NCBI GenBank assembly: GCA_013299045.1
Contig: JAAFJX010000032.1
Span: 1 to 40,525, forward strand
From: Cytophagales bacterium
GTDB lineage: Bacteria; Bacteroidota; Bacteroidia; Cytophagales; Bernardetiaceae
Length of the DNA: 40,525 nucleotides
Direction of reading: 5' to 3'
Shown: positions 4,289-16,414 of the stretch, piece after piece
Numbering within the stretch: the first letter of the stretch is position 1
Layout: each line of letters opens with the position of its first letter
Position numbers and translations under genes: made by a program
The notes under the pieces: generated by a model
What the model saw: the letters and a program-made list of their open reading frames with translations, nothing else
What the model was told of the DNA's origin: nothing
Databases searched by the model: none

Positions 4289-7129
4289 TTATTCTACCAG
4301 CACAAAAGGCCCCCAATAGTAAGGTTCTGGGTGAGTCTTGCGAATGTAGGCTTGGGCAGCATTGAGTGCTAAATTTTTGTCCTTTTTGGCGAGCCAAATC
4401 TTATAAAACTGGTTAATAAATTTTTGGGTTACGGCATCGTCCACTGGCCAAAGGCAAAGGAGCGTAGCACCAGCGCCCGCCACTTTGAAGGCTCGTTGCA
4501 AACCATATACGCCCTCACCATTTTCTAGCTTGCCTCTAGCTGTTTCGCAGGCCGATAGCACCACCAATTCCGTATTTTTTAGGTTTAGGCAACTCACTTC
4601 ATAAGCGCTCAGTAGGCCGTCATCTTTTTCGTTGGGGCCTAGCAATAAGCAAGAATTGAACATAGCCTCTTCGTTGGTGGGCGATTTGTCCAAGTAGAGG
4701 CCGTGCGTGGCTAAATGCAGAATATTGACTTCCTCTATGTTTTTGAGAGCTGTTTCGCTGGCTTGTTCGTGCAAGTAGGTTTTGGTAATAATTTTGTCTT
4801 TTTTGAGAAGTTGCGCAATGCCCAAAACTTCCTGCTCTGTGCCTGGTAGGTCTGAGGCCTTGTGCCACCAACGGATGTTTTGTGGACTTTTAAGGCTGTC
4901 ATGGAGTGTATATTTTGGCCTTCCTAACAGAAAAGCATTTTTGAGTGGGCTCTCGGAGCGTTTCTTCAGTAAATTGCGTGTGCTTGTCATCTGGTTGATG
5001 GCTACTGTTTCGCCCAGAAATTTTTTGGTTTCGGGGTTATAGAGGGAGTTTAGACTAATTTGATGATATACGCCATCGGCAGAAAAATAGATGCGTTTAA
5101 CTCCCCAAAGTACTTTTTCAAAGGGCTTCCAGAACTGGGCATAGCTGATGGTGTCTTTGATTTCAAAATAAGAGGTATTCTGATAATAATTTTTGAAATC
5201 GTACTCTAATTCTGTGCCATTTTCCAGAATAACTAGCAAGGGTTGTTGGCAGGTTTTGTTAATGACCAAGGCCACATACATAACCTGGCCTTTATCAGTA
5301 ATGTCTAGTTTAGCGCGTTCCAAAAGCCCATCTAATCTAATAAACTCTATGGCAACTTCATTTTTTTTGAGTTCTTTTTGGATAACTTCCCATTTCGTTG
5401 CGCTGTCGTTTGGGTCTATATTCGCCATGTTATAAAGCGCTTTTTCCAATTGGTTGCTCTTGTACACAAGGCTGTCTAGCTCTTGTGGATTTTGTGCGGC
5501 CTTGCCTCTTTGGTGATACTCTGCCAGTAATTGCTTGGTGCTTGTCCAATGTCTGTATGTTTTAAGGATATTTTCGTCTTTGGAATCTGCCACAACTTTT
5601 CGCATTCTTACGGAATTATCCAGCATAATTGCCTTGCTGAAGAGCACTGCCTCGTAGAGTTGGGCAAGCTCATTACCCTCTGCATTTTGTTGCTTGCTTT
5701 TGTAGAGCAGATGTTGGTAATAATCATTGAAGATAGGTGCAACAACTTTCTCATAGTACTTCGCTTTTTCTTTTTCGCTAAAAGTTTGGAAGTTGGTGCA
5801 CAACTTTCGTTTGACAGCTTCATAGCAAAAATGAATTTGTACATATCCCAAATCATGTTTTCCCATCAAATAGAGCGTGTTGGCGTAGCGGTGCTTCCAG
5901 CTCATGTGGTTGGATTCGTCCGAGTAGCCGGTTTCATCAAAAATAGCAAAACCTTTTTCAAAATAGGTTATCGAAGAATCTAGCTCATTCAGTTCTCTTT
6001 TCAAAGAGGCATAGTTACATAAAAGACCTGCATAGCTTTCTGATTGGCCTTGCCCCTGATTCTCCTTGATGCTCATAACTTCTCTGTAGAGTTGGGTAGC
6101 CTCTTCATAACGTTGGGTTGATTTGTATAAATTAGCGATGTTCATAAGCGAGGACGCATATAAGCTGTGTTTTTCTCCTAATAGCTCTTTTCTTATTTCT
6201 AAGCATTTTTTATAAACCTCTTCTGCCTCCTTGTATCTCTCCAAGTACTTCAAGTTGATGGCATGGTTATTCAAATAAGCGGCATAGCGGAGGCTTTTTT
6301 CGCCCGATACTTCTTTGCGAATGCTTAGGGCTTCACAGTAGAGCTTATCTGCATTTTCATACAAGCCAGAGCTACTGTAAACCATAGCCAAATTGAAAAT
6401 GGCAGAAGCATAATCTGTATTATTTTTACCAATTGTCGCCTCATAAATGCTAATGGCTTCTAGTGCGTCGCGCTCAGCCAAAGAATAATCGCCCAAACCT
6501 GTATAAAAAGAAACCGAATTTGAAAGTATCCTGCCATATTCCAAGTGCTTTTTGCCGTATAGTTTTTCGCGGATAACAAAACACTCTTTCAGAATAGGCT
6601 CTAGCACTAACCTGTCTGACGTAATATCTTGCATAATCAAGAAGTAGGCATTCATTATGCCTGAGTAGCTATTTCGGAGTCCTTTTTCATATTTTCTGCA
6701 CAAGTCTAGCGCTTTTTCTAAATAATCAATCGCTTGTTGCGGCTTATTGCCAGGAAAAGCCGATGAGTAGTAAATAGCGCTTGGCAGATAAAAATCTGCC
6801 AAATGTTTGGCGTTATTCGCGGTTGGATTATCCGCGTAGCGCTTTTCTGAAGCAGGCAAATACGTTTTGATAGTCGTTTCAGCTACCTCAGCTTGCCCTG
6901 CATAAACCCGCGCCCAAAGCAAATAGCTAAAGAATGAGTCTTTTGTCTTCTGCGAGGTGATGGTATCGCTATAAGCAGCCTCGGCTATGGGCAGTAACTT
7001 CTTGAATTTTTGCTGTTTATGAAGTTCGTCCATAATATCCATTAGGCTATCCTGCTGGCTTTTTTGTGCGAACGCCGTATTCTGTAAGCACAGAAATAGC
7101 ATGGCGAAAGCAAAGGCTATCGTCTTCAT
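4289..7129 (-). CDS. Secreted TPR-repeat protein with C-terminal CHAT (caspase-like) protease domain
   Basis: The 946-residue protein starts with a signal peptide (MKTIAFAFAMLFLCLQNTAFA, cleavage likely after A21). Roughly residues 130-440 hold TPR repeats of the kinesin-light-chain type, seen as recurring A-x-x-x-Y-x-x-A-L-x-I-R/E-K units. A helical linker follows. The last ~250 residues form a CHAT domain with catalytic His809 in HLATHG and Cys861 in LSACETA, then GEGVYGLQRAF and LWPVDD. CHAT is a clan CD fold related to caspase and separase. The intact dyad implies an active cysteine peptidase, here exported rather than cytoplasmic. The target is unknown. It is transcribed alone, divergently from sufE; a -7-like box on the minus strand is at 7208-7215. 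Confidence 0.9.
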   Translation of the reverse strand: MKTIAFAFAMLFLCLQNTAFAQKSQQDSLMDIMDELHKQQKFKKLLPIAEAAYSDTITSQKTKDSFFSYLLWARVYAGQAEVAETTIKTYLPASEKRYADNPTANNAKHLADFYLPSAIYYSSAFPGNKPQQAIDYLEKALDLCRKYEKGLRNSYSGIMNAYFLIMQDITSDRLVLEPILKECFVIREKLYGKKHLEYGRILSNSVSFYTGLGDYSLAERDALEAISIYEATIGKNNTDYASAIFNLAMVYSSSGLYENADKLYCEALSIRKEVSGEKSLRYAAYLNNHAINLKYLERYKEAEEVYKKCLEIRKELLGEKHSLYASSLMNIANLYKSTQRYEEATQLYREVMSIKENQGQGQSESYAGLLCNYASLKRELNELDSSITYFEKGFAIFDETGYSDESNHMSWKHRYANTLYLMGKHDLGYVQIHFCYEAVKRKLCTNFQTFSEKEKAKYYEKVVAPIFNDYYQHLLYKSKQQNAEGNELAQLYEAVLFSKAIMLDNSVRMRKVVADSKDENILKTYRHWTSTKQLLAEYHQRGKAAQNPQELDSLVYKSNQLEKALYNMANIDPNDSATKWEVIQKELKKNEVAIEFIRLDGLLERAKLDITDKGQVMYVALVINKTCQQPLLVILENGTELEYDFKNYYQNTSYFEIKDTISYAQFWKPFEKVLWGVKRIYFSADGVYHQISLNSLYNPETKKFLGETVAINQMTSTRNLLKKRSESPLKNAFLLGRPKYTLHDSLKSPQNIRWWHKASDLPGTEQEVLGIAQLLKKDKIITKTYLHEQASETALKNIEEVNILHLATHGLYLDKSPTNEEAMFNSCLLLGPNEKDDGLLSAYEVSCLNLKNTELVVLSACETARGKLENGEGVYGLQRAFKVAGAGATLLCLWPVDDAVTQKFINQFYKIWLAKKDKNLALNAAQAYIRKTHPEPYYWGPFVLVE

Positions 7130-8475: not shown

Positions 8476-10002
8476 ATGTATATACGCACCGTTCGCATAC
8501 ACAACTTTAGGAAAAGAAATGATTTTGTGTTGAATTTGGCGCAAGACGTAACGCTGCTGAGTGGGCAAAATGGCAGCGGAAAAAGCTCCGTGCTAAGCCT
8601 TTTGGAAGCAGCCTTACACCGCCGCATGGGCACTGAAGAGCAAACCTTGCTCTGTGATGCAGTCTCTATTCATACCTCCGATAATGGACAAGTTTTTTGG
8701 GACCCTAAAAACGGACGTACTGACTACAAAAATTTGCTACCCGAAGAGTTCAAAAACATAGTAGGGCAACTGATAGGAGTGCCCGAAGTGAACGACCTGA
8801 ACGACCATGCTGTTGCAGAATGGACGCAACTCCTTATCAGTAAAAAACCTCAAAAAGGCATAGACAAAATATTGTTACAGCGCGTACAGCAGTTTTCAGC
8901 CTTTAAAAGCACCAACGATGCTTATTTTGTACGCAAGGCAAGGAGAAGCGAACCTATTGAAGGCGGCAATTATGACCGCATTGATGCTTTCTACGACATT
9001 CTGGAAGAATACTTCCGCGACGTAAACAAAAAGCTCAACCGCGACACTCAGCCTTTTCACTTTGTTGCGCCAAGTATAGACGAAACGCGCCTCTCTATTG
9101 GCGAAAAACAGCTACTCCTTATTTTTGTAAGCGTTTTTTTACAACACCAAGCCCCTGCTTTTTTGATGCTGGACGAAGCACTGCTCGGCATCAATACTTT
9201 TTGGCAAAAACGCATACTCAAAGATTTACGAAACCTCAATCCTAACTGCCAAATTTTGATAGCCACACACTCTCCCTACACCCTTGGCGAACAACTTGGC
9301 AATGCCCGCATCAAGCTCGAGGACTGCTGGCACAATCTGGATAGGTCTGGTTTTGGAGCCAGCAAAAGCCAAAACGCTCTTGTAAACACAGCGCCAATGG
9401 TAGGTAGTGTTACGTCCTTTATGCAAAGCGCAAACACAAGCCCCACCGATAATAAGCCGCGCATTGTGCGTTTAAAAGAAGACTTTCTGAAGGTAAAGGA
9501 CAATCCAGAATACCGCGATTTTGACCGCACCTACCACGTTAATTTGCGCATCAAAGAGGAGGTATCCTTCGCCTTGGAAGAGTGCCAAGAGATTGTGGCC
9601 ATTCTGGACGAACTCCGAATAGGAACTGACGTTATCACGGTTACAACGCTGATGAACCGCATGAACTCGCTCCAAGACTGTAAAGCGCTCTTAGAGTCGG
9701 TTTCAAACCCTGACGATGCCGTCATGTATGTGGCCAATGTACCTAATGAAATTACGCTTAACTCCATGCTCAAAAAAGCAGGCAATTTGGTAGAAGGGCT
9801 AGACTTTATTATGGAATGCGAGCGGCAATACAAAATGGAAAGTAAGTTTCCAGACATCATCACCTTCAGTACGCTGCTCGGCAAAGCCAATAGCCGTGCA
9901 GAAATAGATGAAGTAGAAAATATGCGCCGCTACTTCAAAATAAGCGTTAATGATATTTACATGACCCGCCTACACAGCAAACGTGAGCATCTAAAGGCCT
10001 GA
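8476..10002 (+). CDS. AAA/ABC-type ATPase with PPR-like C-terminal repeats
   Basis: The 508-residue protein has a complete ABC/SMC-like ATPase module. Walker A is GQNGSGKSS (residues 30-38), the signature-like motif LSIGEKQ (206-212), Walker B FLMLDEA (229-235) and the switch histidine ATHS (265). The region between Walker A and signature is short (about 165 residues) and not a long coiled coil, as in AAA_15/AAA_21 'predicted ATP-binding' proteins rather than RecN or SMC. After a linker (about 290-345) the C-terminus has repeats with the look of pentatricopeptide repeats: DVITVTTLMNRM (385 on), NEITLNSMLKKA (424 on) and PDIITFSTLLGKA (459 on), the last two 35 residues apart. No TOPRIM or nuclease motif was seen. 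It has its own promoter. Related ATPases often act in phage defence or DNA repair, but nothing adjacent confirms that here. The ATPase call is firm, the PPR call moderate. Confidence 0.8.
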   Translation: MYIRTVRIHNFRKRNDFVLNLAQDVTLLSGQNGSGKSSVLSLLEAALHRRMGTEEQTLLCDAVSIHTSDNGQVFWDPKNGRTDYKNLLPEEFKNIVGQLIGVPEVNDLNDHAVAEWTQLLISKKPQKGIDKILLQRVQQFSAFKSTNDAYFVRKARRSEPIEGGNYDRIDAFYDILEEYFRDVNKKLNRDTQPFHFVAPSIDETRLSIGEKQLLLIFVSVFLQHQAPAFLMLDEALLGINTFWQKRILKDLRNLNPNCQILIATHSPYTLGEQLGNARIKLEDCWHNLDRSGFGASKSQNALVNTAPMVGSVTSFMQSANTSPTDNKPRIVRLKEDFLKVKDNPEYRDFDRTYHVNLRIKEEVSFALEECQEIVAILDELRIGTDVITVTTLMNRMNSLQDCKALLESVSNPDDAVMYVANVPNEITLNSMLKKAGNLVEGLDFIMECERQYKMESKFPDIITFSTLLGKANSRAEIDEVENMRRYFKISVNDIYMTRLHSKREHLKA

Positions 10003-14377: not shown

Positions 14378-14650
14378 TTAGAAGTTGAGAGCAGGAACAA
14401 CGGCCTTAATTTCGGGTACAGCATTCAAAACGGCTTGTTCAACACCTGCTTTAAGAGTCATGCCCGAAATATGACAAGAACTACAGTTACCGAGCAGTTC
14501 AATTTCGGCAATAAAGTCCGTCGTGATATTGACCAAGCGTACATCACCACCATCAGTTTTAAGATAAGGACGAATGCTCTCTAAAGCATTTTCTACACGC
14601 TGATAAAGCTGGCTATCGTGTTCCTGAATTGTTTTTTCGGAGAGGCTCAT
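14378..14650 (-). CDS. NifU-like Fe-S scaffold protein (C-terminal domain type)
   Basis: This 90-residue protein from the ATG at 14650 (MSLSEKTIQE) is a stand-alone NifU C-terminal domain. YLKTDGGDVRLV and the cluster-binding CxxC (C56 and C59 in LLGNCSSCHIS) are diagnostic. Such proteins carry or deliver 4Fe-4S clusters. It is the first gene leftward from the candidate origin and is probably co-transcribed with the 13858-14358 gene. An ATG at 14671 would add MLPNPNT, which is not typical of the family. Confidence 0.92.
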   Translation of the reverse strand: MSLSEKTIQEHDSQLYQRVENALESIRPYLKTDGGDVRLVNITTDFIAEIELLGNCSSCHISGMTLKAGVEQAVLNAVPEIKAVVPALNF

Positions 14651-14759
14651 GGTGTTTGGGTTTGGCAGCAAAAGAGTTCACAAACATACAAAAATAAGTG
14701 CAATCATGCAAATTGATGCGCCATCTCTTTCTGATAAAGTTCCTTGATATATTAGCTGT

Positions 14760-15200
14760 TCTATTTTATCCACAAAGAGCTTGTTTTATATTTAACTATT
14801 AAAATAATTTTAAGAATAAAATTAAAACTCATAGTAAGCCTGTGGACTTGGCGAATAACTCTTCTAATTCATCGTTTATCAACGTTCATATCCGCGAAGT
14901 TGTCAAGTTATAAAGTATTGATAAATAGATAAATAAATCTTTTTTGAACGGCTGTGTATAAAGAAAATCCACAAATTAAGGACTGTTCATAATTCGTTCA
15001 TAATTGATTCGAAAAAGGCGACCCCTTGTGGATAAACAATCCATAAAATATATAGTGAGCCAGACTTATACACACGAAATGTTTAAAAAGAGGTTTTATC
15101 CACAGGTAAGAGTCATTTTGTGGAATGTATAAAATTTATACACATTCGTTGATAAAGTCTGTTTAGTGTCTGATTATCAGTTTTTTTTATGTGGAAAACT
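14760..15200. other. Candidate chromosomal replication origin (oriC)
   Basis: This gene-free, AT-rich region has six 9-mers matching the DnaA-box consensus TTATnCACA: 14766-14774 (+, TTATCCACA), 14953-14961 (-), 15027-15035 (-, TGTGGATAA), 15066-15074 (+), 15096-15104 (+, TTATCCACA) and 15136-15144 (+). Three are the perfect TTATCCACA. Weaker boxes include TTATCAACG (14876-14884), its reverse complement CGTTGATAA (15147-15155), AAATCCACA (14965-14973) and TGTGGAAAA (15190-15198). Very AT-rich stretches at about 14785-14832 and a GATAAATA tandem at 14920-14936 could be the unwinding element. The flanking genes nifU-like (-) and hemH (+) both point away from it, as expected for leading-strand genes beside an origin. 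dnaA itself is not in the window. Confidence 0.75.
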
Positions 15201-15285
15201 CAATATTGGGATAAGAAAATTGTAAAAAGTGTATGGAGGGTTATGAAAGATTAGCCACAAAGGTTTTAGCAAACGAATAGAGTTG

Positions 15286-15293
15286 TACCTTTG
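15286..15293 (+). promoter_or_regulatory. -7 box for hemH
   Basis: TACCTTTG fits TAnnTTTG and is 77 bases before the hemH ATG. A TTTT/TTTA stretch at about 15264 lies at a plausible -33 distance. Confidence 0.45.
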
Positions 15294-15370
15294 CGAGTAA
15301 CTATCAAAAACAAAAGACAGTATCAAGTGTTTTTGTACTCAAACAAAACAATCAAAAAGTAGAATTTTAT

Positions 15371-16414
15371 ATGGCCTCCTCCACACACACAGCCGTTTTA
15401 TTAGTCAATTTGGGCACTCCCGATAGCCCCAAAACGCCCGATGTACGCAAATATTTACGGCAGTTTTTAATGGACGGGCGCGTGATAGATATTCCCTACT
15501 GGCAGCGTTTTTTGTTGATAAATGGCATTATTGCTCCTTTCCGTGCCCCAAAGTCTGCCAAAGAATACCAAAAGCTATGGACAGAGCGAGGTTCTCCTTT
15601 GTTGTTTCACAGCCAAGATGCTGCTGAACTGCTCCAAAAAGCACTTGGCAAAGATTACATGGTGCGCTTAGGTATGCGTTACCAAAGCCCTAGTATAGAG
15701 AGTGCTTTAAACGAACTTCTTGCTGCTTCGCCCCAAAAGTTGATAGTTTTACCCATGTTTCCTCAGTATGCTTCCTCTACAACAGGTTCGGCGCACGAAG
15801 AAGTCATGCGTTTACTCAACAAACGCTTGCTGATTCCGCAGGTGCATTTTATTGACCATTATCCTGAGCATCAGCGTTTCATTGAGGCATTTTCGACCAT
15901 CACGCAGAGCTATCTGGAGCAAGATGATTATGACCACGTTTTGTTTACTTATCATGGCCTGCCCGAGAGGCATCTTAAAAAGGAAAATAATGCCTGCATA
16001 TATGGAACTTGCTGCAATACCCTCACTCCTCAGAATAGGCTTTGTTATCGTGCTCAATGTTATGCTACTACGCGCCGTATGGTAGAAAAATTAGGACTTA
16101 AAGAAGGCTCTTACACGGTTTCTTTCCAGTCCCGTTTGGGCAAGAATCCTTGGATAAAACCATATACAGACCTTATTATTGACGAGTTAGCGGCCAAAGG
16201 CATCAAAAGAGTATTGGCCTTATCTCCTTCGTTCACATCGGATTGTCTAGAAACGGTCATTGAAATAGGCGAAACATACAACGAACAATTTGTAGAAAAA
16301 GGAGGCGAGCGCTGGCAGCTTGTTCCTTGTTTGAACACTCACCCACTTTGGATTCAGGCGCTCAAAGAACTGACGTACAGCGTAGAAGCCCCTGCATTTA
16401 TGGAAGAGGTCTAA
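15371..16414 (+). CDS. hemH: Ferrochelatase
   Basis: HemH inserts ferrous iron into protoporphyrin IX to make protohaem. The 347-residue protein starts AVLLVNLGTPDSP, the family's N-terminal signature. The metal-binding His195 is in FTYHGLPERH and the catalytic Glu294 in DCLETVIEIGE. SFQSRLGKNPWIKPYT (251 on) is also characteristic. A cluster of cysteines (209, 214, 215, 225, 230) follows the active-site histidine, a pattern present in many bacterial ferrochelatases, some of which bind a 2Fe-2S cluster. No other haem genes are adjacent. It is the first gene to the right of the candidate origin and ends only 23 bases from the converging thyA stop. Confidence 0.96.
   Translation: MASSTHTAVLLVNLGTPDSPKTPDVRKYLRQFLMDGRVIDIPYWQRFLLINGIIAPFRAPKSAKEYQKLWTERGSPLLFHSQDAAELLQKALGKDYMVRLGMRYQSPSIESALNELLAASPQKLIVLPMFPQYASSTTGSAHEEVMRLLNKRLLIPQVHFIDHYPEHQRFIEAFSTITQSYLEQDDYDHVLFTYHGLPERHLKKENNACIYGTCCNTLTPQNRLCYRAQCYATTRRMVEKLGLKEGSYTVSFQSRLGKNPWIKPYTDLIIDELAAKGIKRVLALSPSFTSDCLETVIEIGETYNEQFVEKGGERWQLVPCLNTHPLWIQALKELTYSVEAPAFMEEV

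Follow-up and report, generated by a model that had tools for sequence, protein, structure and literature searches.

Predicted chromosomal origins of replication (oriC) of the type collected by Ori-Finder and DoriC occupy a long intergenic region, in which a cluster of DnaA boxes (TTATNCACA) is combined with an unstable segment rich in A+T. As excerpts of the Ori-Finder 2022 paper put it, oriC is not always located near dnaA, and box clusters are an important criterion for finding it (PMC10225481); excerpts of the DoriC 10 paper describe one cyanobacterial oriC at a distance from both dnaA and dnaN (PMC6323995). Here we describe a locus with both of these features at positions 14747–15200 of a 40.5 kb stretch of DNA (hereafter, the window), which is the whole of contig C74 in a draft assembly of 4,064,984 bases and 79 contigs (99.8% complete). 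On the evidence of its sequence and of genome comparisons, we give a probability of roughly 0.87 that this non-coding element of ~450 bp is the chromosomal oriC of this bacterium. It departs from the described type in that its neighbours vary within the genus and it does not lie beside dnaA, the usual though not an obligatory place.

All six TTATNCACA boxes of the window fall within 379 bp (14766–15144), with none in the rest of the 40.5 kb. Three of them read TTATCCACA (14766–14774 and 15096–15104 on the plus strand, 15027–15035 on the minus strand) and three read TTATACACA (15066–15074 and 15136–15144 on the plus strand, 14953–14961 on the minus strand), which agrees with an initial annotation of six such 9-mers on both strands within about 380 bases. 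Given 235 TTATNCACA matches in the 4,064,984 bases of the assembly, 0.022 would be expected in 379 bp, and a Poisson model puts the probability of finding a cluster like this one somewhere in the genome at ~1e-8. Dinucleotide shuffles of the window yielded a mean of 1.8 boxes and reached six in 1 of 100 cases, a test of the whole-window count that ignores clustering. The same annotation had mentioned several near-matches, and these are indeed concentrated here: of the 178 sites in the window that differ from TTATCCACA at no more than two positions, 12 begin within 14760–15200, compared with 1.9 expected by length.

The surrounding DNA is A+T-rich (71% in 14760–15200 versus 57% in the whole window) and includes, at 14778–14837, a 60-mer of 87% A+T for which nearest-neighbour energies give the lowest stability anywhere in the 40.5 kb window. 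This candidate DNA unwinding element starts four bases beyond the end of the first box. Open reading frames of at least 30 aa that overlap the box region are purely mechanical (31 to 49 aa), and nothing of 50 aa or more lies between the starts of the two flanking genes at 14650 and 15371. On the left, a stand-alone NifU-domain protein of 90 aa (Pfam NifU, E = 1.3e-23) is encoded on the minus strand at 14378–14650; on the right, the ferrochelatase gene hemH (Pfam Ferrochelatase, E = 2.2e-105) occupies 15371–16414 on the plus strand and is followed by a thymidylate synthase gene. The A+T-rich DNA, the lack of a gene and the divergent flanks claimed at the outset are thus all borne out. Searches of the window for Rfam families at gathering score, tRNA and tmRNA returned nothing. 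Elsewhere in the window we noted a TPR protein of 946 aa whose C-terminal domain is of the CHAT (caspase-like) type (4289–7129) and an ATPase of 508 aa that matches AAA_15 and AAA_21 (8476–10002), the latter of a kind known from some defence systems.

A position between two divergent genes would also suit a DnaA-controlled regulatory region of nifU or hemH. The element TAnnTTTG is the Bacteroidota −7 element, and possible promoters are found outside the box cluster on either side: two matches for nifU at 14681–14696 on the minus strand (starts 14681 and 14689) and one for hemH at 15286–15293 on the plus strand. Since the window holds 71 TAnnTTTG matches, these assignments are weak and suggestive at most, and so is the argument that they make against a regulatory role of the boxes. 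A further comparison comes from relatives located through hemH (40 loci; 53 of 59 genomes, best 30 loci including the bacterium's own). Among the 69 other hemH loci (L002–L041 and L043–L071, some of them the same place taken from two collections), none has two or more boxes within up to 1500 bp upstream of hemH, 66 of them covering the full 1500 bp, and two have one box; oriC is therefore not found next to hemH as a rule. The nifU–hemH gap, proposed in the initial annotation as the place to look for conserved boxes, was found in no relative examined.

A related element came to light elsewhere in the genome of the only congener compared (G001, of the same genus, g1; 84% complete). A DNA search with window positions 14660–15360 gave a 50-bp match on its contig C28 (E = 5.1e-4), the second-best outside the bacterium's own genome, which we pursued since a listed TTATCCACA adjoined it. 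The best match by E value, on contig C43 of the same genome (2.7e-4, 34 bp), has no TTATNCACA in the surrounding 13 kb and was set aside as an A+T-rich chance match. Window positions 14747–15200 are collinear with C28:62531–62984, with a local alignment score of 132. By comparison, 500 dinucleotide shuffles averaged 37.7 and reached 61 at most, 109 other pieces of the same genome scored no higher than 56, and the wrong strand gave 55. Three TTATNCACA boxes lie in the congener's element (C28:62604, 62696 and 62740), the sole group among the contig's 12. At the place of the box at 14766 the congener has CTTTCCACA, and at that of the box at 15027 it has, on the same strand, TTATGCACA; the near-match TTTTCCACA (15190–15198, minus strand) belongs to a block that is identical in the two genomes (TTTTTATGTGGAAAACT). 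The A+T-rich segment is represented too: at the corresponding place, the congener has the 60-mer that ranks fourth for instability on the 124 kb contig. With box-like 9-mers masked, the alignment scored 63, whereas 200 shuffles averaged 40 (sd 6.2) and went up to 65. Homology outside the boxes thus appears genuine, though modest.

In the congener, the element is flanked by rpsP (30S ribosomal protein S16) and a DUF2805/TIGR03643 gene rather than by nifU and hemH. Its own hemH follows an 838-aa ORF (taken as ccmF by eye), in a 13 kb locus that is devoid of TTATNCACA. Because the element has been kept with other flanking genes, the boxes belong to a non-coding element and not to nifU or hemH; a regulator of these neighbours is unlikely when both have changed between congeners, and, taken together with the 69 hemH loci, we regard a regulatory region as very unlikely. 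The congener's element also speaks against an origin that came with an integrated plasmid or another mobile replicon. Plasmid origins, too, can hold box clusters, according to excerpts of the DoriC 10 paper (PMC6323995). In the window, no replication-initiator, partition or integrase family was detected in the 20 scanned proteins of 51 ORFs (dnaN, another frequent neighbour of oriC, was not among these 20 either), and positions 14660–15360 had no match in 72,556 plasmid and 50,697 phage records. We consider such a mobile origin scarcely probable at all.

Within its own genome, the cluster stands alone as far as the listed places go. The listing, read by eye, took in all 67 TTATCCACA, all 48 TTATACACA and the first 100 of the 235 TTATNCACA places; it covers the C and A variants in full, those among the other 135 places included, and the G and T variants on the earlier contigs. 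Among the matches listed, two TTATNCACA in 500 bp is the most seen at any other place, with such pairs on contigs C59, C69, C9 and C40. As a separate observation, TTATNCACA is 1.9 times commoner in this genome than its reversed control (235 versus 126), and boxes outside oriC may be conserved as well. The genome has one DnaA match, on contig C32, in which the N-terminal domain, the ATPase domain and the helix-turn-helix domain are all present. The initial annotation had named a stronger cluster next to dnaA as evidence that would count against the locus; the 18 kb around dnaA contain no TTATNCACA box. The helix-turn-helix signature of this DnaA (L125:7762–9231) reads FGKRHHSTVIHA; the E. coli motif is FGGRDHTTV, from which a box-contacting residue seems to differ.

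The comparison within the family covered 11 genomes from four genera. A dense TTATNCACA cluster of 10–33 boxes is present in 9/9 genomes from the three other genera, none of them beside hemH. In genus g2, 10–17 boxes lie directly downstream of one glutamate dehydrogenase gene in 7/7 genomes, and in the single-contig genome G005 this cluster (C1:2058870–2059576, intergenic) is the only dense one among 81 TTATCCACA places. The predicted g2 origin shares with the window the box consensus, the density of boxes and the intergenic position, while having 10–17 boxes versus six, other neighbours, and a masked similarity to the window at the level of chance (G002 and G005). In G003, 22 boxes separate an SDR-family gene from recN, and the SDR frame, if read at its greatest length, overlaps two of these boxes; the glutamate dehydrogenase gene of this genome is on the same contig, ~51 kb from the cluster. 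In G004, the flanking genes are one of the Uma2 family and one for a carbon-nitrogen hydrolase, and the 33 boxes occupy L122:8912–10067 (1.16 kb), several of them recurring at a spacing of ~212 bp. A close copy of the g2 glutamate dehydrogenase gene is absent from the bacterium's own genome and from its congener (best identity 33% and 31%).

Homology of the window element to the clusters of these other genera was considered and rejected. Raw alignments scored 95 for G004 (at most 59 in 100 shuffles) and 81 for G002 (at most 66 in 100), on one strand each. Shared boxes alone can lift unmasked scores in this way, to 95 for the window with G004 and 88 for G001 with G002, versus 132 for the window with G001. 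Masked scores were at chance (41 versus a shuffle mean of 38.8 for G004 and 28 versus 39.5 for G002, with G003 and G005 likewise), so the likeness of the window to the clusters of G002–G005 lies in the boxes themselves.

Several observations weigh against the oriC reading. Masking leaves modest homology with the congener, unmasked scores between origins of different genera come fairly close to the congener's 132, and GC skew keeps its sign across the window. In addition, the cluster is smaller than those of the other genera (six boxes here and three in the congener versus 10–33), and a draft of 79 contigs leaves gaps in which a stronger cluster could sit. These last two points would fit a true oriC hidden in an assembly gap, with the present element acting as a secondary, DnaA-titrating site. 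The datA locus of E. coli is such a DnaA titration site and is likewise a non-coding cluster of DnaA boxes; the element described here differs from it by including the least stable DNA of the window, a melting-prone segment, and by being the sole cluster among the genome matches listed. Moreover, a second dense TTATCCACA cluster was found neither in G005 and G003, for which the lists are complete, nor among the matches listed in G002 and G004 (of g2, this genome-wide listing covered G002 and G005). The full list of 48 TTATCCACA in the congener, an assembly 84% complete, contains no two within 500 bp; other TTATNCACA variants were surveyed there on contig C28 and on other fetched stretches. We rate titration with a hidden origin as unlikely.

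What supports window positions 14747–15200 as oriC, and with them the proposal of the initial annotation that replication starts here, is a combination of features: an intergenic box cluster far above chance, the strongest in the genome among the matches listed; the lowest DNA stability in the window; a collinear counterpart in the single congener compared; clusters in all nine genomes of other genera; and a DnaA that has its DNA-binding domain. An oriC would be expected to have just this appearance, a sole cluster among the places listed together with DNA prone to melting.

Other markers of an origin were of little help in this family. GC skew, a minimum of which the initial annotation had proposed as a check, was +0.011 to the left and +0.009 to the right of the cluster in the window, and −0.017 and −0.011 on the congener's contig, with no sign change in either. 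In G005, skew averaged over 38 stretches of 15–19 kb came to −0.019 on one side of the cluster and +0.005 on the other (permutation p = 0.066), and 1 of 246 split points scored above the one at the cluster. GC skew is weak in the family, even in this single-contig genome. The sequence TGTTTCACGTGAAACA, which we take to be the canonical parS, was found, at ≤2 mismatches, neither in the window nor in the loci examined. ParB_N matches above the Pfam cut-off were present in 0/7 family genomes (G000, the bacterium's own, to G005, and G007) versus 9/14 control genomes, and partition genes are therefore of no use as an origin marker here; judged by these domain searches, the family may have no canonical ParABS system. 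Weak ParB_N matches below the cut-off were seen in G005 and G007. DnaA-trios were equally uninformative. The pattern of the basal unwinding system (BUS), in the excerpts consulted, comprises a box, a spacer of up to 16 bp and three or more NAN trios, with 3′-GAT-5′ the commonest (PMC8287927). The longest run at the locus was four trios, none of them GAT, which is no enrichment over a shuffle mean of 5.5 and runs of at least four in 99.4% of 500 shuffles, the pattern being so loose that the test is powerless.

If the locus works like the origins of other bacteria, DnaA, whose gene is on a different contig, would bind the TTATCCACA and TTATACACA boxes along with weaker box-like sites, form an oligomer, melt the A+T-rich segment at 14778–14837 and load the helicase at that segment. 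Binding, melting and initiation at 14747–15200 are predictions.

Across the family, the clusters were found in five neighbourhoods: glutamate dehydrogenase (g2), SDR/recN (G003), Uma2/carbon-nitrogen hydrolase (G004), rpsP/DUF2805 (G001) and nifU/hemH (here). Even in g2, where the glutamate dehydrogenase gene is constant, the other side of the boxes varies: judged by eye, small cysteine-rich ORFs belonging to a single family stand there in G002, G006 and G007, but a 586-aa ORF in G005, and the genes further out differ between G005/G006 and G002/G007. One conceivable explanation, which we put forward tentatively and with some doubt, is that the family's oriC is a portable unit of ~450 bp, the sequence of which is kept in congeners while both flanks are swapped, either as breakpoints recur at the edges of oriC or as oriC itself moves. 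Excerpts of a published paper report that the bias towards symmetric inversions around the origin is much weaker in Bacteroidetes and their allies (PMC5850607). Among the titles and abstract openings listed from the open-access literature on oriC in Bacteroidota and Bernardetia and on oriC relocation, we found descriptions of neither this origin nor such a turnover of neighbours.

These results place a probable origin in a chromosome in which dnaA gives no hint of its position and GC skew is weak, and suggest that members of this family reveal their oriC more reliably through box clusters than through gene neighbours. The kind of origin, a DnaA-box oriC, is already known, and the turnover of its neighbours within one family is the more interesting part. 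If the neighbours of oriC do turn over so fast, the family would provide a natural test of selection on gene order around the origin.
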